From: a virus
IMG/VR virus record: IMGVR_UViG_3300025646_006878
Span: 1-20,508 of that record
Direction: 5' to 3' (one strand)
Length of the DNA stretch: 20,508 bases
Below, piece after piece: positions 2,262 to 19,966 of the stretch. Position numbers and translations under genes: made by a program. The notes under the pieces were generated by a model, which was given only the letters and a program-made list of their open reading frames with translations, was not told the DNA's origin and did no database searches. Positions within the stretch are counted from its first letter, which is position 1, and every line of letters begins with the position of its first letter.

Positions 2262-2721
2262 TCGCAGCCTCCACAACGAGCAGGGTTGGTCGCTTTGCGG
2301 TGAATGTACCTGAGCTGATCGTGATCTTGATCGAGTAGGTCTGCGTGGTGTCCAGCAAGACCATCTGCGCCGTCTGCGATAGGTTGGTCGCGCTCAGTCC
2401 CACGCTCCATGCGGTGCTCGAAGCATTGCCAGAGGAGGCAGTCAACAGCGTCCCCGACTGATCATAGAAGGAGAATGAGAAGTTGGCGCTCGTAGAGCTG
2501 CGCTCGCCGTCCTCACTGAGCAGGAGCCAATAGCTATACCCTGCTGTTGGCGTTATGACCCCTGTCGAAGAGTTGATCGAGATCGTAGAGGAGCCTGTTG
2601 ACCGAACGGTGTCAAAGGTCAAGACATCGCCTGAACTCATCGACTGATCCGAACTCTTAGTGAACTCGCTCACGACAACATTGACGCGCGTGGAGCTTAA
2701 CTCCTCGTATAGGTAGCTCAT
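2254..2721 (-). CDS. Small beta-rich virion protein, probable fibre accessory
   Basis: Product of 155 residues. I use ATG 2721-2719, which overlaps the fibre stop as ATGA; a start at 2733 would add only four codons inside the fibre gene. Composition is rich in Ser, Thr and Gly. Recognisable segments are GDVLTFDTVRSTGSSTISIN (~31-50), TPTAGYSYWLLLSEDGE (~57-73), NFSFSFYDQSGTLL (~80-93) and TYSIKITISSG near the end. This resembles the C1q/TNF-like beta sandwich (G-x-Y-x-W/L strand, F-x-F strand, Y-x-I-x-I strand), as does the 171-residue protein two genes on. Probable role: trimeric virion surface domain binding the fibre or a host receptor. The family assignment is inference. Confidence 0.72.
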   Translation of the reverse strand: MSYLYEELSSTRVNVVVSEFTKSSDQSMSSGDVLTFDTVRSTGSSTISINSSTGVITPTAGYSYWLLLSEDGERSSTSANFSFSFYDQSGTLLTASSGNASSTAWSVGLSATNLSQTAQMVLLDTTQTYSIKITISSGTFTAKRPTLLVVEAANV

Positions 2722-4841
2722 ATCACGAACCAATTCGCCCCATCTGACACGATGGAGATTGCCGCATATTGGATCGAAATCACAAAGGTTGACGCGCCAT
2801 CAATGGTCTGAGCGCCGTTGGGGTCAATCGTGAGCGCGAACGATCCGAGGTTCTTGATGTGATACTTGAAGCCAGATGTCACAGTCGCAGCAGAAGGAAG
2901 TGAGACGGTGGTGGCAGCAGTTGTCGTGAGCAGGAAGATCTCCTCAACCCCTGTATAAGTCGTGATCGAGTATGAGCCCGAGACTGAGGCGCTCGTCACA
3001 GTAGGCTGACCGATCCCTAAGTTGATCCACTCAGAGGTCGCGCTGTCATAGGTCAGCACCTGGCGATCCGCAGGTGTCGTGATCGTCACATCGGTGATAT
3101 CGTTGAGCGCGACAGTAGCGACCACGCCTGTGAGCAGAGAGCCATCGACCGCAGGGAGCTGCGCTGATCCGTTTAGCTGAACGACATTCAGCGCGCTCGT
3201 CCCGACATCGAGAGCCGCTGCGGTGCCGAGGGTCGGAGTCCCGCTCAGATCGCTGTAGGCGCCGGTCGTTGCGACCGTTGCCAGCGTAGGAGTCCCTGTG
3301 ACATCGGCATAAGCGACAGCGGAGTTGATCCACTCCGAGCTCGCGCTGTCATAGGTGAGAACCTGGCGATCCGCAGGTGCCGTGATCGTCACATCGGTGA
3401 TCCCATCAAGGGAGGTCGGCGGGAGGTTGATGAGCTGCGAGCCGTCAACAGCAGGGAGCTTGGCTGAGGCGTCAAGCTGAACGACATTCAGCGCGCTCGT
3501 GCCAACATCGAGAGCCGCTGCGGTGCCGAGCGTCGGGAGCCCACTCAGATCACTGTAAGCCCCGGTCGTTGCGACCGTTGCCAGCGTAGGAGTCCCGCTC
3601 AGATCACTGTAAGCCCCGGTCGTGGCAACAGTTGCAAGAGTCGGGGTCCCGCTCAGATCGCTGTAAGCGCCGGTCGTGGCAACAGTTGCGAGAGTCGGAG
3701 TCCCTGTCACATCAGCATAAGCGACCGCCGAGTTGATCCACTCAGAGCTCGCGCTGTCGTAAGTCAACACCTGGCGATCCGCAGGTGCCGTGATCGTTAC
3801 ATCGGTGATCCCATCGAGAGAAGTCGGCGGGAGGTTGGTGAGCTGCGAGCCATCAACAGCAGGGAGCTTTCCAGAGGCATCAAGCTGAACGACATTCAGC
3901 GCGCTCGTGCCAACATCGAGAGCCGCTGCGGTGCCGAGCGTCGGGAGCCCGCCTAGGTCGGAGTAAGCCCCGGTCGTGGCAACAGTTGCGAGAGTCGGAG
4001 TCCCGCTCAGATCGCTGTAAGCCCCGGTCGTTGCGACCGCGGCAAGGGTCGGAGTCCCTGTCACATCAGCATAAGCGACAGCGGAGTTGATCCACTCAGA
4101 GCTCGCGCTGTCGTAAGTCAACACCTGGCGATCCGCAGGTGTCGTGATCGTCACATCGGTCAGCGCGTCGAGAGTCGTGACACCACTCGGCAGGTTGGTG
4201 AGCTGCGAGCCGTCAATCGCCGGGAGCTTTCCAGAGGCGTCAAGCTGAACGACATTCAGCGCGCTTGTTCCGACATCGAGAGCGGCTGCGGTGCCGAGCG
4301 TGGGAAGTCCGCTCAAGTCGGAGTAAGCCCCGGTCGTTGCGACCGTGGCAAGGGTTGGAGTCCCGCTCAGATCACTGTAAGCGCCCGAGGTTGCGACTGT
4401 GGCGAGCCCGCTGATATCACCTGCGCTCAAGACCACAGCACCGGTGCGACCTGCGACCGAGGTCACGCTATCAGTTGAATCAATCTTGTCGATCTTGCTG
4501 TCGGTGACGGTGCCGCCCATGTCGGCGTTGACGAGCAGGTGATCGCCGACATCCCAAGAGCGCCCCGCATAGGTGCCAGCGCCGCTGATGATGTACAGAT
4601 CGCCCTTGACTGCGTTGGAGAGGTCGAGCGGCGAGCCTGCGTCAAAGGTGCCTTTATAGGTGACGCCACCAACCACCGCAGCATCGACAACAGACTTCAC
4701 CTTTGCAGGCGTCATCGCAGTCAGATCGTTCGTGCCGGCGGTAGCCTCTGCGCTCGTTGCAATGCGGATCTTGCCAGCCACGGTCTCTGAGGCGTTAGGG
4801 AAAGAGGCTGCGCCTCCTGAGATCTTAATGTTGACACTCAT
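2718..4841 (-). CDS. Tail fibre with long internal repeats
   Basis: Product of 707 residues from ATG 4841-4839, three bases after the previous stop. The N-terminus (VNIKISGGAASFPNASETV, then a TPAKVKSVVD segment) resembles fibre attachment domains. Residues ~158-610 are repeats: a block with DVGTSALNVVQLDASGKLPA, LTNLP, a DVTIT segment, ADRQVLTYDSASSEWIN and SAVAYADVTGTPTL, interspersed with 18-residue TLATVATTGAYSDLSGTP units. The C-terminus (~625-707) contains TTVSLPSAATVTSGFKYHIK, TIDPNGAQTIDG and DGANWFVI, a common C-terminal fibre module. Such proteins usually form trimeric fibrous shafts that contact the host. Repeat copies are nearly identical at DNA level, so copy number may vary by recombination. 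Receptor specificity cannot be read from the sequence. Confidence 0.9.
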   Translation of the reverse strand: MSVNIKISGGAASFPNASETVAGKIRIATSAEATAGTNDLTAMTPAKVKSVVDAAVVGGVTYKGTFDAGSPLDLSNAVKGDLYIISGAGTYAGRSWDVGDHLLVNADMGGTVTDSKIDKIDSTDSVTSVAGRTGAVVLSAGDISGLATVATSGAYSDLSGTPTLATVATTGAYSDLSGLPTLGTAAALDVGTSALNVVQLDASGKLPAIDGSQLTNLPSGVTTLDALTDVTITTPADRQVLTYDSASSEWINSAVAYADVTGTPTLAAVATTGAYSDLSGTPTLATVATTGAYSDLGGLPTLGTAAALDVGTSALNVVQLDASGKLPAVDGSQLTNLPPTSLDGITDVTITAPADRQVLTYDSASSEWINSAVAYADVTGTPTLATVATTGAYSDLSGTPTLATVATTGAYSDLSGTPTLATVATTGAYSDLSGLPTLGTAAALDVGTSALNVVQLDASAKLPAVDGSQLINLPPTSLDGITDVTITAPADRQVLTYDSASSEWINSAVAYADVTGTPTLATVATTGAYSDLSGTPTLGTAAALDVGTSALNVVQLNGSAQLPAVDGSLLTGVVATVALNDITDVTITTPADRQVLTYDSATSEWINLGIGQPTVTSASVSGSYSITTYTGVEEIFLLTTTAATTVSLPSAATVTSGFKYHIKNLGSFALTIDPNGAQTIDGASTFVISIQYAAISIVSDGANWFVI
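3022..4420 (-). repeat. Nested direct repeats inside the fibre gene
   Basis: Two repeat levels are visible. Long blocks are marked by a TTGATCCACTC sequence (plus strand) at 3022, 3325, 3733 and 4087 and by ACGACATTCAGCGCGCT at 3181, 3481, 3889 and 4249. A 54-bp unit containing CTCAGATCACTGTAAGCC or a close variant starts near 3244, 3544, 3598, 3652, 3952, 4006, 4312 and 4366. All spacings keep the frame (54, 300 and 306 bp), so blocks can be gained or lost without breaking the protein. In protein terms each short unit is 18 residues. Confidence 0.9.
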
Positions 4842-5221: not shown

Positions 5222-5932
5222 TCAACGCTCCTCAAAGTCCTCGGGAAGTAGACGATAGATGTGAGCGATGCTGTTCACATCGCGCTGACGCTTGATCACG
5301 CCCTCGGCGCGACCCTTCGGCGTCTGACCCTTGGCATTGCCCTCAATGGTCGAGAACAGCCCGAGGTCATTGGGAGGCTCAACACAGAGCGTGATATGGT
5401 TCCCCTGCACATCGCTCTTGTTGTTCAGATCGTTGAAGATCACCACAATATCCCCGGGCATGGGTTGCTCACCATCACGACAGCGCGAGGTCTTGCCCCA
5501 AGCATTCCAGAGGCGCAGGCAGCTCGGCATGATCTTGTGACGGATCGGGAAGCTGAGATGATCGCCATAGCAGAAGGCTGCGAATGCTCCACACCAGGCG
5601 AACTCACCATTCTTGGTGTAGTCGGGTTGCCACGACCAGCCGAGCCCCTCTCGGCTCTTGATATAGGTGTTGATCCGCTGCCAATCGCCCTTCCATTCGG
5701 GCTCAGTCACATTGCGCTTCCACTCCGCTTCAGCGCGCTCGATCGCATGGCGGCTCTGCTCGGAAGGATAGACCCTGCGCTCGCTGACCACAGAGCCCTC
5801 GAGGGCGGCGCGCATGTCGAGGCGAAGCTGACCGACGGTGCGATTGGCGCGGCGCAGCTCCTCCTCAAGCGCGGCGATCTTCTCCGCTGAGGTCTTGAGC
5901 TGATCTGCGATCTGACTCTTGGTTGCACTCAT
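5222..5932 (-). CDS. Cysteine peptidase (CHAP/NlpC-P60-like) peptidoglycan hydrolase
   Basis: Product of 236 residues. AGGAG at 5941-5945 sits 8 bases from ATG 5932-5930, so I reject the TTG at 5935; the start overlaps the hub stop as TGATG. Residues ~5-50 form a short coiled coil (KIAALEEELRRANRTVGQL). The catalytic domain follows: WCGAFAAFC with probable nucleophile Cys114, then MPGDIVVIF, then GNHITL with His179, then STIEGN with Glu197 or Asn199 as third member. This Cys-His-Glu/Asn order fits CHAP/NlpC-type amidases or endopeptidases that cut peptidoglycan cross-bridges. No signal peptide or membrane span is present. Located between the tail hub and fibre, it may be a virion-borne enzyme that opens the wall at DNA entry. 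It could instead be the endolysin, since no other lysin is in the window and membrane proteins follow about 4 kb on. Confidence 0.8.
   Translation of the reverse strand: MSATKSQIADQLKTSAEKIAALEEELRRANRTVGQLRLDMRAALEGSVVSERRVYPSEQSRHAIERAEAEWKRNVTEPEWKGDWQRINTYIKSREGLGWSWQPDYTKNGEFAWCGAFAAFCYGDHLSFPIRHKIMPSCLRLWNAWGKTSRCRDGEQPMPGDIVVIFNDLNNKSDVQGNHITLCVEPPNDLGLFSTIEGNAKGQTPKGRAEGVIKRQRDVNSIAHIYRLLPEDFEER
5228..5233 (-). promoter_or_regulatory. Ribosome binding site deciding the start of the 124-residue protein
   Basis: GAGGAG is 8 bases from ATG 5219-5217 and only 2 bases from the alternative TTG at 5225. Confidence 0.72.
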
Positions 5933-8900
5933 CAAGCATACTCCTGCGCTGAGTCTGAACCTAACACGGGGAGCGCGTCATTGCTAGCCATGAATGCGTC
6001 TGCCTTGTGCGTGGCGCTCGCGCTTGCGTAGGTGGTCGGCTCGAGCGTTCCCCCGCTCGCGCTGATCCCATGGTTGGTTGTGAAGGTGATCGTCTGACCG
6101 ACCACAGAGAGAATCGTGAGCCCTGTCAGCGCGCCGTCCTCGTTGCCCTCTGGCAAGTAGTCCACCACATCACCCGCGGCGAAGTAACTCGCATCGTCCT
6201 CGCTGAACTGTGCTGAGGCGATGGTCACACTAGAGGATGTCGGCGTGGCTGTGACGAGCGCGGAAGCGTTCCAACACACAGGGCTTATGCCGAGAGAGAT
6301 CATCTCAAGCTGGCAGCCCTCGCCCATGAGGTCTTGATGGATCGCCTTCACAAAGCCGATGCCGTTGGTGACGCCGAAGCTGTCATCGTAGCCCTTGAGG
6401 TGCTTGGAGGTGACATCGACATAAGAGCCGACATCGAGGAACATGCTCGCGCCTGTTCCGATATTCCCGACCCACTCTCGCGCAGGGTTGCTGAACAGGT
6501 TGAACAGCCTTGCCGATGTCGGGAGGAAGAATCCAAAGCTGTCTCCAGCGCCCTCACCAATATCTCTGAGTCTCAGCCCGCGAACGCTGATGCCGATCTT
6601 CTTGAGCTCGCCGCCATAACGATTCACCGCCTCTTGATTCGTGAAGGTTCTTGAGGCGCGATACTTCTCTTCAACCTCGTCCCAATCGAACTGATAGACC
6701 ACCTGCGTCACGATGTCCTCAAAGATCGACCAGCGCGGCGGCGGGTCTGCGATCCAATCCGCCTCGGTGATGGTCGCATCGAGGAAGCGACGATTCTCTG
6801 CGCCGAGCGGCTGGAGCCTCAGCAACGATGACCCGGTGGTCTCGTCTCGGTGCATGATGAGCGCACAGCCCATCATCTTTAGAACGCCGCTGATCTGCTC
6901 CTCGATGTCTGTCCCCTCAGATGACAGGTCTCCACTCAGGCTGAAGAGTGCGGTGCTGTCGTAGGCGATAAAGCTCGCCTCGTCGATCTCGCTTGAGGGA
7001 ATGCCGAGCCCAATCGGAAACAGGTCATAGTCACCGTTGACCTCGAAGCCGCCGCCGCTCTCGAGGAGGCGCAGGAGCAGCTCACCTGGTCGGATCTGAT
7101 CATATCGCGCGCCTCGGCTGATCAAGCACCTCTCCTGCCCCTGCCAATCTCCGAAGCTGTTGTTGTCGTTGAGATACACATTTCGGCTGAGGTGGATATA
7201 TACGCCGATAGCATCACCTTGAAAGCTCGCTGTAGTCTCGTGCGTGGCTTTGAACCATTGCTTCTGCATCTCTCCTGCGACCCGGTTGAAGTACTTCACC
7301 TCAACATCATAATCGTTGCCGTCTGGTGCAGAAGGGAGACCGATTGAGCCCTCCACCAAGATCAGCGGCTCAACGACCTGATACCAGGCGAGAGCCACGC
7401 CGCCGAGAGGAATGCGAGATGATCGCGTTCGACCTGTCCTGCCGAGTGTGCTCTCAAGGAGAACCTGCGTTCCATTCCGGTTGGAGGCTCCCGCGCGACC
7501 GATGTCGAGCGTCGCTTGCTCGGTGAGTTGGATCGGATAGTTGAGGCGCATATAATCATCAAGCGCAGGATAGCCAGCGGCGGCGGTCCAATAACGACCA
7601 TCGATCGGCTCCACCTTTTCACGCGCAGACCACATGAGCATCTGCGTGCTGAATGGTGTTGGATCGGCGTTCTGAACGGCAACAACATCAGAGCCGTCGA
7701 GCGCCCATCTTCCCCATTGACCATCGACTCCCTGCGTCGTGCTCAATGTAAGTTGGAGCTGTGAGTTGATCGCCTGTGTCCATTGAACAAGGGTCTCCTC
7801 AGCGATCTTGATCCGCTTGATCTCGACCTGTGGTCGGATCTCAAGATAGTCGCCCATATAGAGGTTCGTAGATGCCGAATCGAACTGTATCGAACAGCCT
7901 GGGCTCGGCGCGTTCGATGTGACGCTTATTGGCAAAAAAGAGCGATTGAATCCGATAATGCCCAATCGGGGAAAGCGCGGATGGACGCCCGAGTCACCAT
8001 GAGGGAGGCTTATGTCGAACAGCCGATTAATCTCTTGAGCAATGTCAACATCAAGGTATGCAACATTCGGCGTTACAGCGGTGTCAATGCTCGTGATGCG
8101 AGCCTGACGGCTTGTGCCGATGAGCCTCCACGCCCATTCAAGATGATTCCCTGTCGTGGAGAAATAGTGATAGTCGTGAAGGAGGTTGGTTGTGACGCCG
8201 ATCGCCGCAGACGCGCTCGAAGCGAGAGCCACGAGCGGCAAGATCGAGAAGCTGACCTCGCTCGCCTCCTCGACCTGTGGCGTGTTGTCGATGAAGCCGT
8301 TGACCACCTGAACAAAGTCCGACAGACCGCCATCTGGATATTGGTGAGCTGCGAACAGTGAACAGCGCCGACCTCTAAAGGTCGTGATCTCGGTTGTCAC
8401 CTCTGGCGAGTTGGTGCCGCCGAGCGTGATCGCATGAGCTTGACGCTGTGATCCGCCGACTGCGCGAGCCCCGATCAGGAGCTTGTTTGAGGTGACACCA
8501 GAGCAGCGGAAGCTCTCTGCCCCAATGTGAACGATCGAAGGCGTTATGATCTGACCTCTTAGATCTCGATCAACATTGGCGAGGATCGGCGCATTGGTCT
8601 CATACTTGATTGACTGCGTGAGCTTTGCCCTCGTGACGCTCGAGCGCGATCCACACCGACCAAATACCACATGAGGATCAGTTGACGCGCCACGAGCTCC
8701 ACGAGAGGCGAGAGTCACGCTCACGCCTTGATAGGAGGCGATGCCGCCAGCGGGATCAATCGAGCCGCTGAACGAACCAACAGAGACGAGCCCTGTCACA
8801 TTCTGATACGAGACGCCGGTGGCAATGTTTTGATCGAGATTGGAGCCGCTGAGATCAAGGTCATGGCTCATGTATCTGACCCGAAGCCCTGCGACCTGCA

Positions 8901-10561: not shown

Positions 10562-11757
10562 AGGTGCTCCAGGCTGACCGTCACAGGCACACGCTTCTTG
10601 AGCGCACCGAAGGAGAGGTCAAAGTCGGTGGAGCGCATCGAGCACCGCAGGCGCCCGAGGTCTCCGTTGTTCTCGCTCGTGTAGAGCAGATCATAGGCAG
10701 GCTGGTTGCTCGACACCAAACCCGACCTCAGCGAGCGGCGCGCGTCACCCCAACCTTGATAGAAGTTGATCCGCTCACCCTCGCCGCAGTAGGGAAGGAA
10801 GCCCTCTGTGAAATGACGATAGAGATCCTTCTGATCAAGCAAGGCGTCGATATCGAAGGTGAGGTTGCTCGTCACATAAGAGCCGAGGAAGTTGGACACA
10901 TAGCCACCACCGAGGAGGCGGCGCGCGGTGCTCTCGGTCTCGGTCGAGTAGAAGTGAGCCTGGTAAGGTCTCGAGGGGAACAGCGCGCCAGGGAGCGGTC
11001 GGTCGGCGGTGATCCTGTCATATCCTGTGAATGGATGATCTGCGACCTCGCTCCCACTAAAGCCGAGCCGATCTCGGAAGGTGGTCGATGACCATGTGAT
11101 AGCTCCATAGCTCGTCGGATAGTGGGCTTCAACATGCCCATCATCGTTGATGAGCCAGAAGAAGGTCGAATAGTTGCTGCTCTGTGCCGCCTCGTGAAGC
11201 GCCTCAAGGCATGTGGTCGAGTAAAGCTCATCGGCATCACTCGTCACTCCTCTATTCCGAAGGAGTGTCATAATGTCCTGCCTTGGAGCCTTTGCCGCAT
11301 CGTTGACGAACGGCGCGGTGAAGCTCCCGCCACTGCTCGTCAGCGTGAAGCGCCCGCCGAGGTAGAGCCCACGCATCCAATCAAGCTCGGCTGTCACGAC
11401 CAAGCGACCACCGACCACCGAAGCCGTCTGCGTTCCCCAACCAAACACATCGTCACCGATAGGCGCGATGGAGAAGGCTGTCGATGCGTTACTGATCTCA
11501 AGGAGATCATCGCCGTTGATCGACACCTGCCAATCGCTCCCGAAGGTGGCGAGCGAACTGACCAGCTCTGTCAGCGAGGACAAGCTCGATCGACCGTTGA
11601 GGAAGAACAGCGCATCTTCATATACTCCCGCACCGGCGGAGAAGGTCGGCAAGGTGATCGAGTTCCCATCTTGCTCAAAGACCGTGACGCCGCTCCATTG
11701 CCGAGCGTCAAAGGAAGTGATCAAGGCGAAATTAGGTGACGGATCATTCAGCGGCAT
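10558..11757 (-). CDS. Tail protein following the tape measure, distal-tail candidate
   Basis: Product of 399 residues; ATG 11757-11755 overlaps the tape-measure stop by one base (TGATG). Two similar stretches are visible: SDWQVSINGDDLLEIS followed by a GDDVFGWG turn (~70-105), and TFFWLINDDGHVEAHYPTSY followed by FRDRLGFSGSEV (~195-235). Both have a W/F-x-x-x-I-N-x-D strand, a short gap and an F/L-G-W/F motif, so the protein may contain two copies of one fold. The C-terminus (CSMRSTDFDLSFGALKKRVP) is strand-rich. Genes just after the tape measure usually encode the distal tail ring or the tip proteins that nucleate the tube. The exact role is inference from position. Confidence 0.75.
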   Translation of the reverse strand: MPLNDPSPNFALITSFDARQWSGVTVFEQDGNSITLPTFSAGAGVYEDALFFLNGRSSLSSLTELVSSLATFGSDWQVSINGDDLLEISNASTAFSIAPIGDDVFGWGTQTASVVGGRLVVTAELDWMRGLYLGGRFTLTSSGGSFTAPFVNDAAKAPRQDIMTLLRNRGVTSDADELYSTTCLEALHEAAQSSNYSTFFWLINDDGHVEAHYPTSYGAITWSSTTFRDRLGFSGSEVADHPFTGYDRITADRPLPGALFPSRPYQAHFYSTETESTARRLLGGGYVSNFLGSYVTSNLTFDIDALLDQKDLYRHFTEGFLPYCGEGERINFYQGWGDARRSLRSGLVSSNQPAYDLLYTSENNGDLGRLRCSMRSTDFDLSFGALKKRVPVTVSLEHL

Positions 11758-13886
11758 CAGCGCGCTCCTCTCATCTCACCACGGCGGCGATCAAGGCGTT
11801 GAGTCATAGCCATCTCTGCGGCTCGCTTGGTGTCATACACCACAGCACCGCCGAAGTTGACATTGTAGACGATTGAGCTGGTCTCAGCCCGCTCGCGCTG
11901 TGGCGCGGTCGATGTCTGCGGCGTCCCTGTCGGCGAGGTCGGCGTGGATGTGTTCTTGCCTCCTGCTCCTCCTGTCTGAATGGATGCGGCAGCTCCACCG
12001 GCGGCAACGGCGGCGGCTCCGAAGATGCCTGCCGCGGTGAAGTGGTTAGCGGCTGCGGCAGGGTTGAGGAAGAGCGCGGCAACGCCCTTGGCAGACTCCA
12101 TGAGCGCCGAGACCGTTGCCTCCTGCGCGAGCCCTTGCAGGACTCCCTTGAACGCCTCACCGATGCTCTGAGATGTCCAGATCGCCGCCGCCGCCGCTTG
12201 AGCGAATCCCTTGCCATATTGGTCAAGCGCGCCGTTCACCTTCTCGAGCCTCAGATCAATATACTGCTGCTCTATCTCTGCGCGCTCCATGGTGAATCGC
12301 CTATGCATCTCTGCGAGCTTGACCTCGTTGTCCTGCGCCAAGATGAACTCTTGTGCATAACGAACGCCAAGCGCATCGAGGCGCTGTTGGTTCTCGGCGG
12401 CGAGGTCATCTTTGGGAACGATGCGGTGCTCGATGGCGAACTGCTGACTTTCAGCCTCGAACGCGATCGCTTCCTTGATGGTCTCACGCTGGATATTGAG
12501 ACGCTCCTCGGCGGCAACACGCTCGGCGGCTGTGCGCTCGTCTCGCAGCTTCTTCAGCTCAAGCTCATAGCTCTTTTGGATCACAGCGAGCTTCATCGGC
12601 TCATCCTTGGCGAGCTCGAGCCCGGCGCGGTGACGCTCCTCGATGAGTGCCAGCTTCTGCGCCTCGCCATCCTTCGTGAGCTGAATGTCAAGGAGGTTGA
12701 TCTGGCTCTGCATGGCGAGACGCTGTTGCTCGGCTGCGGCTGCGGCTTTGGCTTCTGCGTCGCGTCGCGCCTGTGCCTCTTTCCAAGCCCTCTGACGCTC
12801 CTCACGCGCCTTCTTGGCGGCGTCCTGCTCCAGCTTTACCTGTCGAGCCATGTTCGCCTCTCTGATAGCCTCCTCCTCACGCAGACCCTCAACGGCGTCC
12901 TTCTGACCCTTGATCATCTCGATCAGCTCGGCGCGGCTCTTGTCCTCGAGCCCGAGGAGGCTGATCGCGTGCTCGGTCTCAACATTGTCCTTGATGAGCG
13001 CTTGAGTCAGCTCATCGAGTTGACCAGCTTCGAGGCGCAGGAGCTCCACCGTCTTAAGTCGCTCGGCGTTCTCTTTGAACTTGGCGCGCAGGTTGTCGGT
13101 GGTCTGCTCCTCAAGGACCTTCTCTTGCTCGGCGGCTGCGGCGATGCCTGCTAGGTTCTGAGCTGATGCGGCTGTGATCTCAGCGGTGCGCTTGGCTCGC
13201 TTGGCTTGCACCTCTGATAGCTCAAGCTCTGCCTTCTGCACAGCCTGAATCGCGGCAGATGTCTCTGAGGAGACCTTGCCATATTCCTTCTGAACCGATG
13301 TGAGATGCGCTTGTGCCTCGGTGAGCGCCTTCTGAGCCTTCTCTTCCTTATCGATCAGAGGAAGGAGCTTCTCCGTTTTCTTGATCAACAGCTCTTTTGC
13401 GACCTGCGTCTCGAGAGTGATTCGTGCAAAACGCTCAAGCTGTCGAGCAGTCGGCACAACGCCGCCCTCAGCGAGAGCCTCGAGCTTTGACGAGAGATCA
13501 CTCGCCGCCGCCGCCATTGCCTCTTGACGATCCTCTGCCTCCTGCGCGGCTCCTGATAGCTGCCTATAAGCCTCATAGACTGCGCCGACCGCAGTCACGA
13601 CCAAGCTGATCGGACCGAGAAGAGATGTAAAGCTCAGAGCGCCACCTTGACCGAGAGCAGAGAAGGCGTCCTTGACACCATCGACTGCGCTGAGGCTCTC
13701 ACCAAGCGCGTCACTCACGCTGGAAAGACCCTCGCCGAGCTGCTTGTTGGTCTTGCCGACTACATCCCCGACAGACTTGAAGGTCTCACCAACGCCCTCG
13801 GCGCCCTTGGTGATGTTCTGAAGTCCCTTGCCGACCTCCTTCTGACCGACAAGCTCAACCTCAATCTGAACCTGATTCTCAGCCAT
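11757..13886 (-). CDS. Tail tape measure protein
   Basis: Product of 709 residues from ATG 13886-13884, with a strong AAGGAGG at 13893-13899 and an 8-base overlap with the chaperone extension. Tape measures line the tail tube during assembly and set its length. Seen here: a glycine/valine-rich N-terminus (NITKGAEGVGETFKSVGDVV), a hydrophobic stretch near 85-105 (SLLGPISLVVTAVGAVYEAY), and about 400 residues of charged helical coiled coil (~110-560: AKKAREERQRAWKEAQARRD, LEQDAAKKAREE). A hydrophobic Ala-rich segment follows near 570-640 (GIFGAAAVAAGGAAAS). At the usual ~0.15 nm per residue, 709 residues imply a tail shaft of about 105 nm, assuming full helical extension. Its position directly after the chaperone pair supports the call strongly. 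Confidence 0.92.
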   Translation of the reverse strand: MAENQVQIEVELVGQKEVGKGLQNITKGAEGVGETFKSVGDVVGKTNKQLGEGLSSVSDALGESLSAVDGVKDAFSALGQGGALSFTSLLGPISLVVTAVGAVYEAYRQLSGAAQEAEDRQEAMAAAASDLSSKLEALAEGGVVPTARQLERFARITLETQVAKELLIKKTEKLLPLIDKEEKAQKALTEAQAHLTSVQKEYGKVSSETSAAIQAVQKAELELSEVQAKRAKRTAEITAASAQNLAGIAAAAEQEKVLEEQTTDNLRAKFKENAERLKTVELLRLEAGQLDELTQALIKDNVETEHAISLLGLEDKSRAELIEMIKGQKDAVEGLREEEAIREANMARQVKLEQDAAKKAREERQRAWKEAQARRDAEAKAAAAAEQQRLAMQSQINLLDIQLTKDGEAQKLALIEERHRAGLELAKDEPMKLAVIQKSYELELKKLRDERTAAERVAAEERLNIQRETIKEAIAFEAESQQFAIEHRIVPKDDLAAENQQRLDALGVRYAQEFILAQDNEVKLAEMHRRFTMERAEIEQQYIDLRLEKVNGALDQYGKGFAQAAAAAIWTSQSIGEAFKGVLQGLAQEATVSALMESAKGVAALFLNPAAAANHFTAAGIFGAAAVAAGGAAASIQTGGAGGKNTSTPTSPTGTPQTSTAPQRERAETSSIVYNVNFGGAVVYDTKRAAEMAMTQRLDRRRGEMRGAR

Positions 13887-14304
13887 TCTGCGCCTCCTTC
13901 ATTGCCTGCTCTCGTTGTCGAGCGATCATGTCCTCGGTGGCTGAGTGTAGCACATCGAAGGCTTCCACTATGGCGCAGGAGGGTTGCGGGAATTGAACAG
14001 ATAATGAAGCAAGCCCCGCTCTATGTCGAGAGTAGGCATGCACGATAGACGCGAGCCTGTTAGCGTCTGCCACAGGACACGATCTGATCTGAAGCTCGCT
14101 GAATGATGAGCCACTATCGGGAGCCACGCGATAACCAGGTATGAAGCGCCCTGACTCGTCTACTTGCGACTGAGGAAGCCCCTCGAGGAAGGAGCCGCCG
14201 CAGTTGCCACGCAGGCGTCTGAGCGCAGGCTTCGCCTTGCACTGATCACAGCTCCAAGACCTGCCGCCGCTATGTGAGAGCCACACGGCGGCGGCGAGTC
14301 CTAT
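13879..14304 (-). CDS. Tail assembly chaperone, -1 frameshift extension (gpT-like part of gpGT)
   Basis: This reading frame is probably translated only after ribosomes slip -1 at 14304-14310. The fusion then runs from 14816 to 13879 and is 312 residues (171 + 6 bridging residues, IGLAAA, + 135). The only local start is a GTG at 14286 inside the hairpin, without a well-placed ribosome site. The extension carries a cysteine pattern, numbered from that GTG: Cys13-x2-Cys16, Cys29 (NCGG), Cys70 (RSCPV) and Cys104 (PSCAI). The first four could bind a zinc ion. The C-terminus is a helix (ATEDMIARQREQAMKEAQNG). In lambda the long form recruits tube protein to the tape measure and is absent from the mature tail. 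The same is expected here. It ends 8 bases inside the tape-measure gene. Confidence 0.85.
   Translation of the reverse strand: MGLAAAVWLSHSGGRSWSCDQCKAKPALRRLRGNCGGSFLEGLPQSQVDESGRFIPGYRVAPDSGSSFSELQIRSCPVADANRLASIVHAYSRHRAGLASLSVQFPQPSCAIVEAFDVLHSATEDMIARQREQAMKEAQNG
14263..14295 (-). other. Frameshift-stimulating hairpin
   Basis: Reading the minus strand, GCCGCCGC (14295-14288) pairs with GCGGCGGC (14270-14263), eight perfect pairs. After one C-A mismatch (14287/14271), GTGTG (14286-14282) pairs with CACAT (14276-14272) including one G-U pair, closing a five-base loop GCTCT. It begins 8 bases after the slippery heptamer, the spacing at which downstream structures stall ribosomes and promote -1 slippage. 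All bases are also coding in the extension frame. Confidence 0.85.
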
Positions 14305-14816
14305 TTTCCCGACTGACCGAGCAGGCTCATGCGCTGAACATGACGCACGAGCTCGGCGATCACCTGGACGCGATGCGCCTCCGGGCGAATGTCATCGAGC
14401 GGGTTGGAGTCCTTGGCGATAGGTCGCTCGTCAATCATGATCAGCGAGGCCCGCACCATCTCGTTAAAGACTCGATTAATATAGCCTTGATAAGAGGCGA
14501 GCGCGCTCTTTTCATCGTCGCTGAGATTATGGTGCCAGAGCGCCTTCGCGCGAGGCTCGTCGGGAGACTCGACCCACAGCATGCGCCCAAGCTCAGAGCG
14601 AGTGTAAGCGCCTGCGCGGACCTCTGCCTCCTCGCGCTCAGTCGGCGAGAGCGCCTTGAGCGTGAACATGGTCGCTCCCTCATGCTTCTCCAGCTTCCCA
14701 AGATCGCCGCTCTCGAGGTAGGCAGCAGCCTGCTCGTTGGTGGCGATGACGGCAGGGTCACAGGTCACAACGACATCGAGGGTCATTGTGGAGGAGGGCA
14801 TGAAGGAGAGCGCCAT
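14301..14816 (-). CDS. Tail assembly chaperone, short form (gpG-like)
   Basis: Product of 171 residues from ATG 14816-14814. GGAG lies 7 bases upstream and the gap after the tube-protein stop is 2 bases. A mixed N-terminus (MTLDVVVTCDPAVI) is followed by acidic and basic helical segments (ALSPTEREEAEVRAGAY; PEAHRVQVIAELVRHVQRM). There is no membrane span. Genes in this exact slot, between tube and tape measure, with a slippery site at their end, encode the abundant short chaperone that coats the tape measure before tube polymerisation and is then released. Sequence conservation in this family is low, so the call rests on position, size and the frameshift element. Confidence 0.88.
   Translation of the reverse strand: MALSFMPSSTMTLDVVVTCDPAVIATNEQAAAYLESGDLGKLEKHEGATMFTLKALSPTEREEAEVRAGAYTRSELGRMLWVESPDEPRAKALWHHNLSDDEKSALASYQGYINRVFNEMVRASLIMIDERPIAKDSNPLDDIRPEAHRVQVIAELVRHVQRMSLLGQSGK
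14304..14310 (-). promoter_or_regulatory. -1 programmed ribosomal frameshift slippery site G GGA AAA
   Basis: The last codons of the short chaperone read TCG GGA AAA TAG. GGGAAAA is an X XXY YYZ heptamer in the correct phase, so both tRNAs can re-pair after slipping one base back (GGG, AAA). The stop follows at once, and the new frame then reads ATA GGA CTC into the downstream frame. Lambda uses the related GGGAAAG in the same gene pair. Confidence 0.92.
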
Positions 14817-14818
14817 GT

Positions 14819-16108
14819 TTAGACTCCGAGAGCGATGCGGACGGGAGAGTTACCTGCGGCGCTGTTGCTCACATCACCACCGAAGCGACCCGACGCATAG
14901 CTGAGGGTCTGACGAGTGATGTCGTTGCCGCTCACATCGTACTTCGAGGGATCTGCGGTGAGGTAGGCAGCAGGGAGCATGAGCGCCAAGCCGAGACCAT
15001 CGCCAACAGGACCACAACCCACTAACACTTGACGAGAGGTGCGATTGAAGAAATCGTTGTTGATGGTGGTGTTGGGGTCGCTCACCGTCAGCGACAGCTC
15101 CACGGCAACATCGCTGATCTCCATGTCCTTCATGGCGAGAAGGCTGTTGCTGTGACCGACCGGGGTCAGCGTGTTCGTGATGGTGAGGCTGAAGTCCTCC
15201 ACATCGAGAGCAATGCGCCCGAGCGTGTCCCCGGTGGTCGCGGTGCCGCTCGTCTGAGGAGCTGCATCGCTCACCACCACATAGGAGCCACGGAAGAACG
15301 CAGGTGCGCCGGTGTTGTACTCGGGCTCAACAGGACCGGCGGCGTTGCCGTGATCGTCCTGGATACAAGCCGACTGATAGGTGAGATCAGCCATCACGCG
15401 CCCATTGTCGAGGCTGAAAGCGATGCTCTCGAGGACACAGCCGACCGCATAGGAGCGGAAGCCGACGCCATCCACTCGGAAGGCGAGCGAGTAGTTGCGA
15501 TCGCCGGTCAAGGTGCGCGAGCCGGGGAACCAGGTCTGCATACCACGAACGAGAGGAGTCCCGGTGAAGCCTGCGCTGAAGGCAGGGCTCACGGTCACAT
15601 CGCCGCTGGCGTCATTGTCGGTGACGGCGCTGTACTCGGCGCGACCATTCACCGAGGAGCTGATCAGCCCGCCGATGGAGTAGTTGGCGGCGTTAGCGGT
15701 GACGAGCGTGTTGACATCGGTGACGCTGGTCAGCGTGTCGCTCTTCATGATGGAGACATTGGAGAGGAAGCCTGCGCCGAGCAAGTAGCCCATGTAGTTT
15801 GCGGCGTAGGTGTCGGCGGCGCTCCCGATGGTGGTGATGTCGATCCTCATCTGCACCTGGCCGGTGCGGCGGCGAACACGCGCGCCGCTCGACCACACGG
15901 TGTCGGGCTCGGGAGCGATCCCGAACGAGCCATCACGCGCGTCGTTGCGCTCGCTGACCACAGCGTCACCATAGATGATGATCGGATCGCGCTCGCAGGG
16001 AAGAGAGACATAGGTCAGACCAGAGGCATCGGGAAGCCCGGTCGAAGATGAGAGCGAGCCGAAAGAATTCTCGACGGCAACGCTGAGAGAGCGATGAGTG
16101 ACGCCCAT
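14819..16108 (-). CDS. Major tail tube protein
   Basis: Product of 429 residues. A TTG at 16114 is possible, but GGAGG at 16116-16120 is 7 bases from ATG 16108-16106, so the ATG is used; it lies 2 bases after the preceding stop. The N-terminus (VTHRSLSVAVENSFGSLSSS) and segments such as GARVRRRTGQVQMRIDITTI (~75-95), LAFRVDGVGFRSYAVGCVLE and IALDVEDFSLTITNTLTPVG are typical strands of the tail-tube fold, including the V-x-D/F-S-x-T-I-T-N pattern. The second half may form a further beta domain. Six-fold rings of this protein form the tail shaft. It is long for a tube protein (often 150-300 residues), so a surface-exposed extra domain is likely. Confidence 0.85.
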   Translation of the reverse strand: MGVTHRSLSVAVENSFGSLSSSTGLPDASGLTYVSLPCERDPIIIYGDAVVSERNDARDGSFGIAPEPDTVWSSGARVRRRTGQVQMRIDITTIGSAADTYAANYMGYLLGAGFLSNVSIMKSDTLTSVTDVNTLVTANAANYSIGGLISSSVNGRAEYSAVTDNDASGDVTVSPAFSAGFTGTPLVRGMQTWFPGSRTLTGDRNYSLAFRVDGVGFRSYAVGCVLESIAFSLDNGRVMADLTYQSACIQDDHGNAAGPVEPEYNTGAPAFFRGSYVVVSDAAPQTSGTATTGDTLGRIALDVEDFSLTITNTLTPVGHSNSLLAMKDMEISDVAVELSLTVSDPNTTINNDFFNRTSRQVLVGCGPVGDGLGLALMLPAAYLTADPSKYDVSGNDITRQTLSYASGRFGGDVSNSAAGNSPVRIALGV

Positions 16109-16110
16109 GA

Positions 16111-16578
16111 TCAAGCCTCCAAGTAAAGAAGATCGAAGGGGAATGAGAGGATCAGATAGCTTGCTTCTGTGGTCGGATCGAGGATCGGCTCGGCGGTCGG
16201 GTCACCGGGGATCACCGAGACGATCCCGCTTGTGCTGAGGTCGTAGTCTGGACCCTTGATTGCGCGCAGGATCAGCGCGGCGTCCTCGTTGATCAGACGC
16301 TCAAGGTAGTGCTCTTCAGCAGGCACCTCATACTTGACGCGAATGATCAGCGGCGCGCGCCTCCTACCAGAGAGCGCAGCTGCGCCATCATCAATCGTGA
16401 AGCCAACGAAGCGGATCTCGAAAGATCGGTTGGTGTGCTGCCGAGCCTCAAGGGGCGCGACCCTCCCGCCGGTGCGAGCGTTGATCGCCGTGAAGCCATG
16501 ATGGAGGTCGGTCTTAGGAGTGATCGCCTCGATCATGCTCTCGAGCTTGGCGCAGGCGGCGAAGATGCCTTGACTCAT
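16111..16578 (-). CDS. Tail terminator candidate
   Basis: Product of 155 residues from ATG 16578-16576, with AGGAGG-like bases just upstream. It overlaps the preceding stop as ATGA and ends 2 bases before the tube gene. Start is an amphipathic helix (FAACAKLESMIEAITPKTD), then FEIRFVGFTIDD near 53-64, APLIIRVKYEVPAEEHYLER near 74-93, and a C-terminal strand set ending in ILSFPFDLLYLEA. Helix, beta sheet with I-R-V strand and a hydrophobic final strand, at this size and immediately before the tube protein, match lambda gpU-type terminators. These cap the finished tube and join it to the head. Assignment is by position and layout. Confidence 0.75.
   Translation of the reverse strand: MSQGIFAACAKLESMIEAITPKTDLHHGFTAINARTGGRVAPLEARQHTNRSFEIRFVGFTIDDGAAALSGRRRAPLIIRVKYEVPAEEHYLERLINEDAALILRAIKGPDYDLSTSGIVSVIPGDPTAEPILDPTTEASYLILSFPFDLLYLEA
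16116..16120 (-). promoter_or_regulatory. Ribosome binding site deciding the tube-protein start
   Basis: GGAGG with a 7-base spacer to ATG 16108-16106; the upstream TTG at 16114 is only 1 base away. Confidence 0.75.
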
Positions 16579-18964: not shown

Positions 18965-19966
18965 TTAGAGGCAGTCGGTGAGGATGTAGCCGAGGTTGCT
19001 GTCGATCGCCTGGAAGGTGTGGCACTCCTCAGCGTAGACATAGCGGCGGATCTTGCCGAGATCGTCATACTGACCAGCGACCATGCCACCGAACTCGAAG
19101 TTGAGCGCGGCAACAGGCATGCCCTTGACATTGCCGCCCTTCTGCACGATGGCGTCAGAGCCATGCAGGATGCCGAGGAAGAGGCTGTCGGCGGTCCAGA
19201 TGTAGCCCTCGGAAGCCGAAGCGCCGGGGACGGCGCTGTCGATACGAGCCTCACCGACCATGATGTTCGGGATGCCGAGCACATCGGAGAGAACCTGCTT
19301 CACCGCGGCGTCGCTGAGGATCAGGTTACCAGAAGCGATGCCGGCGCTCGAGGTGCCGACATAACCACGCACCTCGGGATTGCGAGCAAGCGCGCGGAAC
19401 AGGTCACGACCCATGACAAGCGTGTCAGGGTTGATGCCATGAGCCGAGGCGAACACGGTGTCCTTGAGCTGGTGGAGGTAGCTCAGAGGCTCGGCGCCCG
19501 CGGCGTTGAACTTGCCGCCGAAGGTAGCGGTCGAGGTGCTGTTGGTGAAGTTGCTCGTCCCGAAGAGGAGGTCGGCGGCGCGCTTCTCCTTGGCGAGCTT
19601 CATCACGCGAGCGACCTTCTTGGCGATGCGCTGCTCCTCGCTCCCAGGATACTGAGAGTCGATGATGTCCTCCATGGCGATCGAATCCTTGGCGGAGTAG
19701 ATCTTAGCCTTGAAGGTGGTGGAGGAGCGATCGAAGCCACCGATGGCGGCACGATCAGCACCGGGAGCGCGCTCGAGGTCGAGACCAGCGCCAGCGCCCA
19801 TGAAGTTGCGGGTCTGCTCGATGAGGAGCGTGCCCGAACGCTCGGGAACCTTGATGTTCTCGAAGAGCTTGTCGGCGATGAGCTGCGCGTCGGAAGGCAC
19901 AGCCTCCACAACGAGCGAGCTGAGGATCTGATCGACAGGATGAAGATTGCTGTATGAGCTAGCCAT
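18965..19966 (-). CDS. Major capsid protein (HK97-fold)
   Basis: Product of 333 residues from ATG 19966-19964, with AGGAG 9 bases upstream. Recognisable parts: LHPVDQILSSLVVEA and DAQLIADKLFENIKVPERSG (~8-45), EQTRNFMGAGAGLDLERAPG (~50-70), FDRSSTTFKAKIYSAKDSIA, and KKVARVMKLAKEKRAADLLF (~118-137), the long spine helix region of HK97-fold capsids. These are followed by SNFTNSTSTATFGGKFN, LVMGRDLFRALARNPEVRGY (an arginine-rich P-domain segment) and LPVAA-like strands near the end. It assembles the icosahedral shell with the cement protein before it. Length is normal for capsids that use a separate scaffold/protease. No obvious N-terminal cleavage domain. Confidence 0.92.
   Translation of the reverse strand: MASSYSNLHPVDQILSSLVVEAVPSDAQLIADKLFENIKVPERSGTLLIEQTRNFMGAGAGLDLERAPGADRAAIGGFDRSSTTFKAKIYSAKDSIAMEDIIDSQYPGSEEQRIAKKVARVMKLAKEKRAADLLFGTSNFTNSTSTATFGGKFNAAGAEPLSYLHQLKDTVFASAHGINPDTLVMGRDLFRALARNPEVRGYVGTSSAGIASGNLILSDAAVKQVLSDVLGIPNIMVGEARIDSAVPGASASEGYIWTADSLFLGILHGSDAIVQKGGNVKGMPVAALNFEFGGMVAGQYDDLGKIRRYVYAEECHTFQAIDSNLGYILTDCL

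Follow-up and report, generated by a model that had tools for sequence, protein, structure and literature searches.

The junction between two overlapping tail genes in the 20,508-base stretch taken from IMG/VR record IMGVR_UViG_3300025646_006878, an uncharacterised tailed phage (the whole analysed stretch is hereafter the window), very probably carries a signal for programmed -1 ribosomal frameshifting, of the lambda G/GT kind (probability about 0.95, judged from sequence). This reading rested on the anatomy of the site, its conservation, structural covariation and the fact that most relatives have no alternative start, and from these we infer slippage itself, its efficiency and the roles of both products. 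Late genes were on the minus strand and included the major capsid protein gene and several connector-like genes. The features of the junction and its neighbours were:

14819..16114, minus strand: probable major tail (tube) protein, 431 aa, assigned by position; upstream neighbour kept in relatives
14301..14816, minus strand: zero-frame chaperone gene (gpG-like; G), 171 aa and a UAG stop; family alignment of 50 members
14304..14310, minus strand: slippery heptamer G_GGA_AAA in -1 phase; slippery in 104/104 distinct junctions
14301..14303, minus strand: zero-frame UAG stop, 0 nt after the heptamer
14296..14303, minus strand: spacer of 8 nt that includes the stop, from sequence and fold
14263..14295, minus strand: predicted stimulatory hairpin of 8 bp, a C-A mismatch, 5 bp and a 5-nt loop
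14255..14303, minus strand: hairpin extended below, in the minimum-energy fold, by a possible weaker helix (14303-14297 with 14261-14255)
13879..14304, minus strand: -1-frame extension (gpT-like; T), 141 codons (I to G, 14304-13882) and TGA; predicted to be made solely as part of a G-T fusion
11757..13886, minus strand: tape-measure gene, with a weak tape-measure PHROG match

The chaperone frame, on the minus strand, ended in ...L-G-Q-S-G-K-stop (TCG GGA AAA TAG), which put GGGAAAA at 14310-14304 in slippery phase, as the first-pass annotation had claimed. That annotation placed the stop one base after the slip, and this was corrected: the UAG abuts the heptamer. Its claim of a 141-codon open -1 frame that leads into the tape-measure start held; the ATG of the tape-measure gene (13886) overlaps the end of that frame. 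Across the window's minus-strand ORFs (6,685 codons), heptamers of the form XXXYYYZ were in phase only 6 times, and the one at 14310-14304 alone adjoined a stop or gene end and preceded a strong fold (-33.4 downstream of the chaperone site vs. -10.6 to -17.4 at the other five).

For most ribosomes, translation of the chaperone gene would end at the UAG and yield the 171-aa G protein. A smaller share would be slowed by the hairpin, some 8 nt ahead, with GGA and AAA in the decoding sites; these would slip back by one base (G_GGA_AAA to GGG_AAA), avoid the UAG and read AUA GGA CUC and onwards for 141 more codons, and their product would be a G-T fusion of 312 residues and about 34 kDa. If lambda is a guide, both products may bind the tape-measure protein through their G part, while the T part, in minor copy number, may recruit the tail-tube protein. 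For mass spectrometry the first-pass annotation had proposed a junction peptide at K171; an Arg-C-type peptide, MSLLGQSGKIGLAAAVWLSHSGGR, does span the junction and a tryptic peptide does not, because trypsin cuts after K171. The predicted trypsin product past the junction, IGLAAAVWLSHSGGR, would still start upstream of the GTG of the -1 frame.

Relatives formed a large metagenomic phage family, found with both frames and their alignments as queries, and gave 104 distinct junctions (85, of which 83 were close and 2 distant, plus 19 further). The heptamer was GGGAAAA in 97 (in phase in 83/83 close junctions, and in 14 of the further 19), GGGAAAG, which is lambda's exact heptamer, in 5 (all among the further 19), and CCCAAAA in the 2 distant relatives (about 31% identity in T). 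Loss of the heptamer and stem from relatives that keep both frames had been named beforehand as evidence against a frameshift; in the relatives the heptamer was slippery throughout and the hairpin was retained. The two distant loci (L177 and L178), with C_CCA_AAA at the homologous junction, came from metagenome bins that bear the labels Fluviicola and Planctomycetota, and the loci serve comparison and not host assignment; a scan of species genomes gave three matches only, these two loci and one short partial match. A sequencing error, or a decaying frame that split two genes, is a reading that a single record could not rule out, and it was refuted by the family: in over 100 distinct junctions, drawn from many metagenomes, the break fell at the same position and both frames were conserved, which left this artefact a practically nil probability.

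The UAG directly adjoined the heptamer in 78/83 close and 18/19 further junctions (96/102); the zero-frame stop was 6 nt on in the remaining 6/102 and 132 nt on in the CCCAAAA pair. A -1-frame stop was directly before GGG in 32/83 close junctions and one codon away in 8 more, so that the heptamer is where the -1 frame becomes open. Where stops abut the heptamer on both sides, of the -1 frame upstream and of the zero frame downstream, a shift is possible only on the heptamer.

T could instead be a separate gene, begun without any frameshift from a GTG in the hairpin or by coupling at the UAG, and the window does have an in-frame GTG 24 nt past the heptamer (14286-14284). This GTG would be inside the stem and lacks a clear Shine-Dalgarno sequence, and the KIALA residues upstream of it were conserved and the heptamer codons fixed. 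In 54/85 distinct junctions the first ATG, GTG or TTG of the -1 frame came over 60 nt beyond the heptamer, well inside conserved coding sequence. By sequence, T appears to have no start of its own in most relatives, the window with its GTG being among the others, and together with the 32 abutting -1 stops this means that the shift must happen at the heptamer. A separate start is accordingly highly improbable.

Slippage of RNA polymerase on the A run, and not of the ribosome, would also yield a fusion, as either kind of slippage would. The A run was only four long, and polymerase slippage needs much longer runs. C_CCA_AAA in the distant relatives, three A in those with G_GGA_AAG, and the exact fit to the phase that ribosomal slippage requires all speak against it, and its probability is extremely small. 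The frameshift reading was also consistent with codon choice in 50 diverged members: GGA was at the heptamer in 50/50 (vs. 14% of Gly codons in the gene) and AAA in 50/50 (vs. 43% of its codon family in the gene), the base before GGA was always G (50/50) across five amino acids, and TCG was used for 13/13 Ser before GGA (vs. about 5% of Ser codons), frequencies whose products are not probabilities since the members are related. The zero-frame stop was TAG in 50/50 (vs. 2/48 for T stops), a constancy that the -1-frame residues (KIALA) may dictate and that alone is not evidence of release-factor control.

The hairpin had been described as an 8-base spacer followed by 8 GC pairs, one C-A mismatch, 5 more pairs and a 5-base loop, and every part of this was found. 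The 5' arm (14295-14288) and 3' arm (14270-14263) formed the 8 GC pairs, the C-A mismatch was 14287/14271, and the inner stem paired 14286-14282 with 14276-14272 (5 bp, one G-U) around the loop at 14281-14277. The minimum free energy of the 73-nt stretch was -35.9 kcal/mol (z = -4.1; 0/200 shuffles equally stable). The lower helix was absent from most relatives and would melt with a ribosome standing on the heptamer. Rfam gave no known RNA over the window.

With the protein held fixed and synonymous codons redrawn in the 51-nt stretch after the heptamer, the family had a mean z of -2.5 to -2.7 at the chaperone site only, vs. about -0.4 (means from +0.4 to -1.0) at other positions in both frames under the same null. 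With the first 5 nt after the heptamer left out of the fold, the longest helix started 5 to 9 nt past the heptamer in 83/91 distinct elements, most commonly at 8. For the 3' arm there were at least four pairing registers, and in some lineages the arm was displaced by one to two codons. Because the registers fell in several classes, a single fixed register was rejected for the family as a whole, and two registers were tested apart. Changes on both sides were found in 8/14 pairs (30 cells) in the register of the window and in 6/10 pairs (14 cells) in the commonest other register; the groups were picked by best register, which favours the percentage paired and affects these compensatory counts less. 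Pair counts, cell counts or covariation scores were matched by 0/500 shuffles in both registers; covariation in the stem was a check that the first-pass annotation had proposed. Structures slid by 1 to 3 columns had far lower pairing and covariation scores, and in the second register group the version slid by -1 nearly equalled the double-change counts. In one relative (L018) the arms were wholly unlike those of the window, yet 15 bp were paired. Compared with L204 and L206, to which it is closely related, another (L207) had an apparent 3-nt deletion inside the hairpin but retained the outer stem. On these alignments a stable structure 5 to 9 nt past the heptamer is maintained by compensatory change.

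The heptamer alone might drive the shift, as in lambda, with the hairpin a by-product of the protein sequence. The lambda site had no stable structure in the same fold test (z = +1.07), and a low rate suffices for G/GT shifting. The phage group here has a conserved hairpin, the protein-preserving null placed the excess stability at the chaperone site (mean z about -2.7), and compensatory changes and moved registers kept the stem as the sequence changed, all of which makes a by-product distinctly improbable and favours the hairpin as part of the signal.

The order of tail gene, G, T and tape measure, with the overlap of T and tape measure, was conserved in 17/17 relatives checked, and two overlapping frames between the positional tail tube gene and the tape-measure gene are what a lambda-type G/GT requires. 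The PHROG tape-measure match had E = 0.017 in the window and E = 1.7e-4 in a relative (L030). Neither G nor T had a significant match in Pfam or PHROG, whether queried alone or by family, and sequence searches of the PDB with G and T gave no matches. The product of 14819-16114 had no family match in Pfam and PHROG searches and is, from its position, probably the tail tube protein. The AlphaFold model of G had a pLDDT of 87, and that of T had a pLDDT of 90 in the best of five models (61 to 72 in the other four). Against PDB structures the T model had no match, and the G model had no match with E < 0.1; YqbN, which we take to be a protein of the tail-chaperone family, was third among the structure matches of G (E = 0.65, not significant). 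In the BFVD viral library the best match of the G model had E = 0.004 and the best named one E = 0.014 (marginal), and the informatively named top matches were mostly tail assembly chaperones, with marginal E-values. The identity of G as a tail chaperone is supported by gene order, the weak tape-measure profile matches in relatives and the weak fold matches. Four cysteines of T (C19, C22, C35 and C76, counted from I1) were invariant across 48 relatives, which suggests a zinc-binding site in the predicted protein; to our knowledge, a cysteine site of the zinc type is not known from lambda gpT.

Frameshifting of the G/GT type is widely conserved in long-tailed phages, and reviews give a lambda gpG:gpGT ratio of about 30:1 (PMC5009743). 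The first-pass annotation was correct to name lambda gpG/gpGT as the precedent: in lambda (G_GGA_AAG), too, the tail tube gene is followed by G, a -1-frame T that overlaps G, and the tape measure, and the heptamer class is the same and the sizes of G and T are similar. Unlike in lambda, the UAG here adjoins the heptamer (the lambda zero-frame stop is 15 nt on), and G and T had no sequence family match to the lambda proteins. In E. coli the heptamers G_GGA_AAG and C_CCA_AAG shift very readily (PMC5009743). These efficient motifs end in AAG whereas GGGAAAA ends in AAA, a difference that counts against the frameshift reading. Tail-chaperone sites assayed elsewhere gave 6 to 7% frameshifting (PMC3711429). 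The E. coli dnaX and IS3-type -1 signals also have a heptamer, a short spacer and then a stimulatory hairpin or pseudoknot (PMC3711429, PMC4066793), but they belong to other genes, and dnaX has an upstream Shine-Dalgarno stimulator and a heptamer ending in AAG. Downstream hairpins are common at -1 sites of insertion sequences, and one survey judged a downstream hairpin relevant in one of five phage clusters (PMC4066793). In SPP1, gp17.5/17.5* is a functional analogue of gpG/gpGT with a putative -1 frameshift, as here, but its heptamer is U_UUU_UUC and the available part of the report describes no hairpin (PMC6316719).

A stop directly 3' of the slippery heptamer is found in Rous sarcoma virus and barley yellow dwarf virus (PMC4373837), eukaryotic viruses that differ in having other heptamers, pseudoknots or long-range pairing, and unrelated genes. 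In HIV-derived tests a stop directly after the slip site cut frameshifting and let release factor compete (PMC4373837), so that output at the present site may be low. The UAG might itself be functional, with competition by release factor 1 setting the ratio of G to G-T, an unusually strong hairpin evolved to offset it, and the stem kept without fixed partners while its 3' arm slid by whole codons; this elaboration is tentative and rather unlikely.

Each part of the proposed signal has a precedent, and what is new is the combination of a hairpin and an adjoining UAG in a tail-chaperone gene across a large phage group. Translated searches of a phage collection (50,697 phage records) with G, T and the major capsid protein gave no relative, and since even the major capsid protein had none, the whole group seems unrepresented among those records. 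The relatives make up a natural series of more than 90 distinct 72-nt versions in which the slip site is nearly constant and the hairpin varied; the series includes swaps among GGGAAAA, GGGAAAG and CCCAAAA and stops that adjoin the heptamer or are 6 nt or 132 nt off. The signal also marks out the tail-chaperone pairs of the phage group, in which standard gene callers would mis-start or miss the T frame.

Elsewhere in the window, the major capsid protein (18965-19966) matched PHROG 1005 (E = 4e-33). The 707-aa ORF at 2718-4841 had tandem repeats of 54 bp and 300-408 bp and probably encodes a tail-fibre-like protein. A partial ORF at the edge (1-315) resembled a ribonucleotide reductase alpha domain below the Pfam cut-off (E = 0.0023), and a 237-aa ORF (5222-5935) weakly matched an endolysin profile (PHROG E = 8.6e-4).
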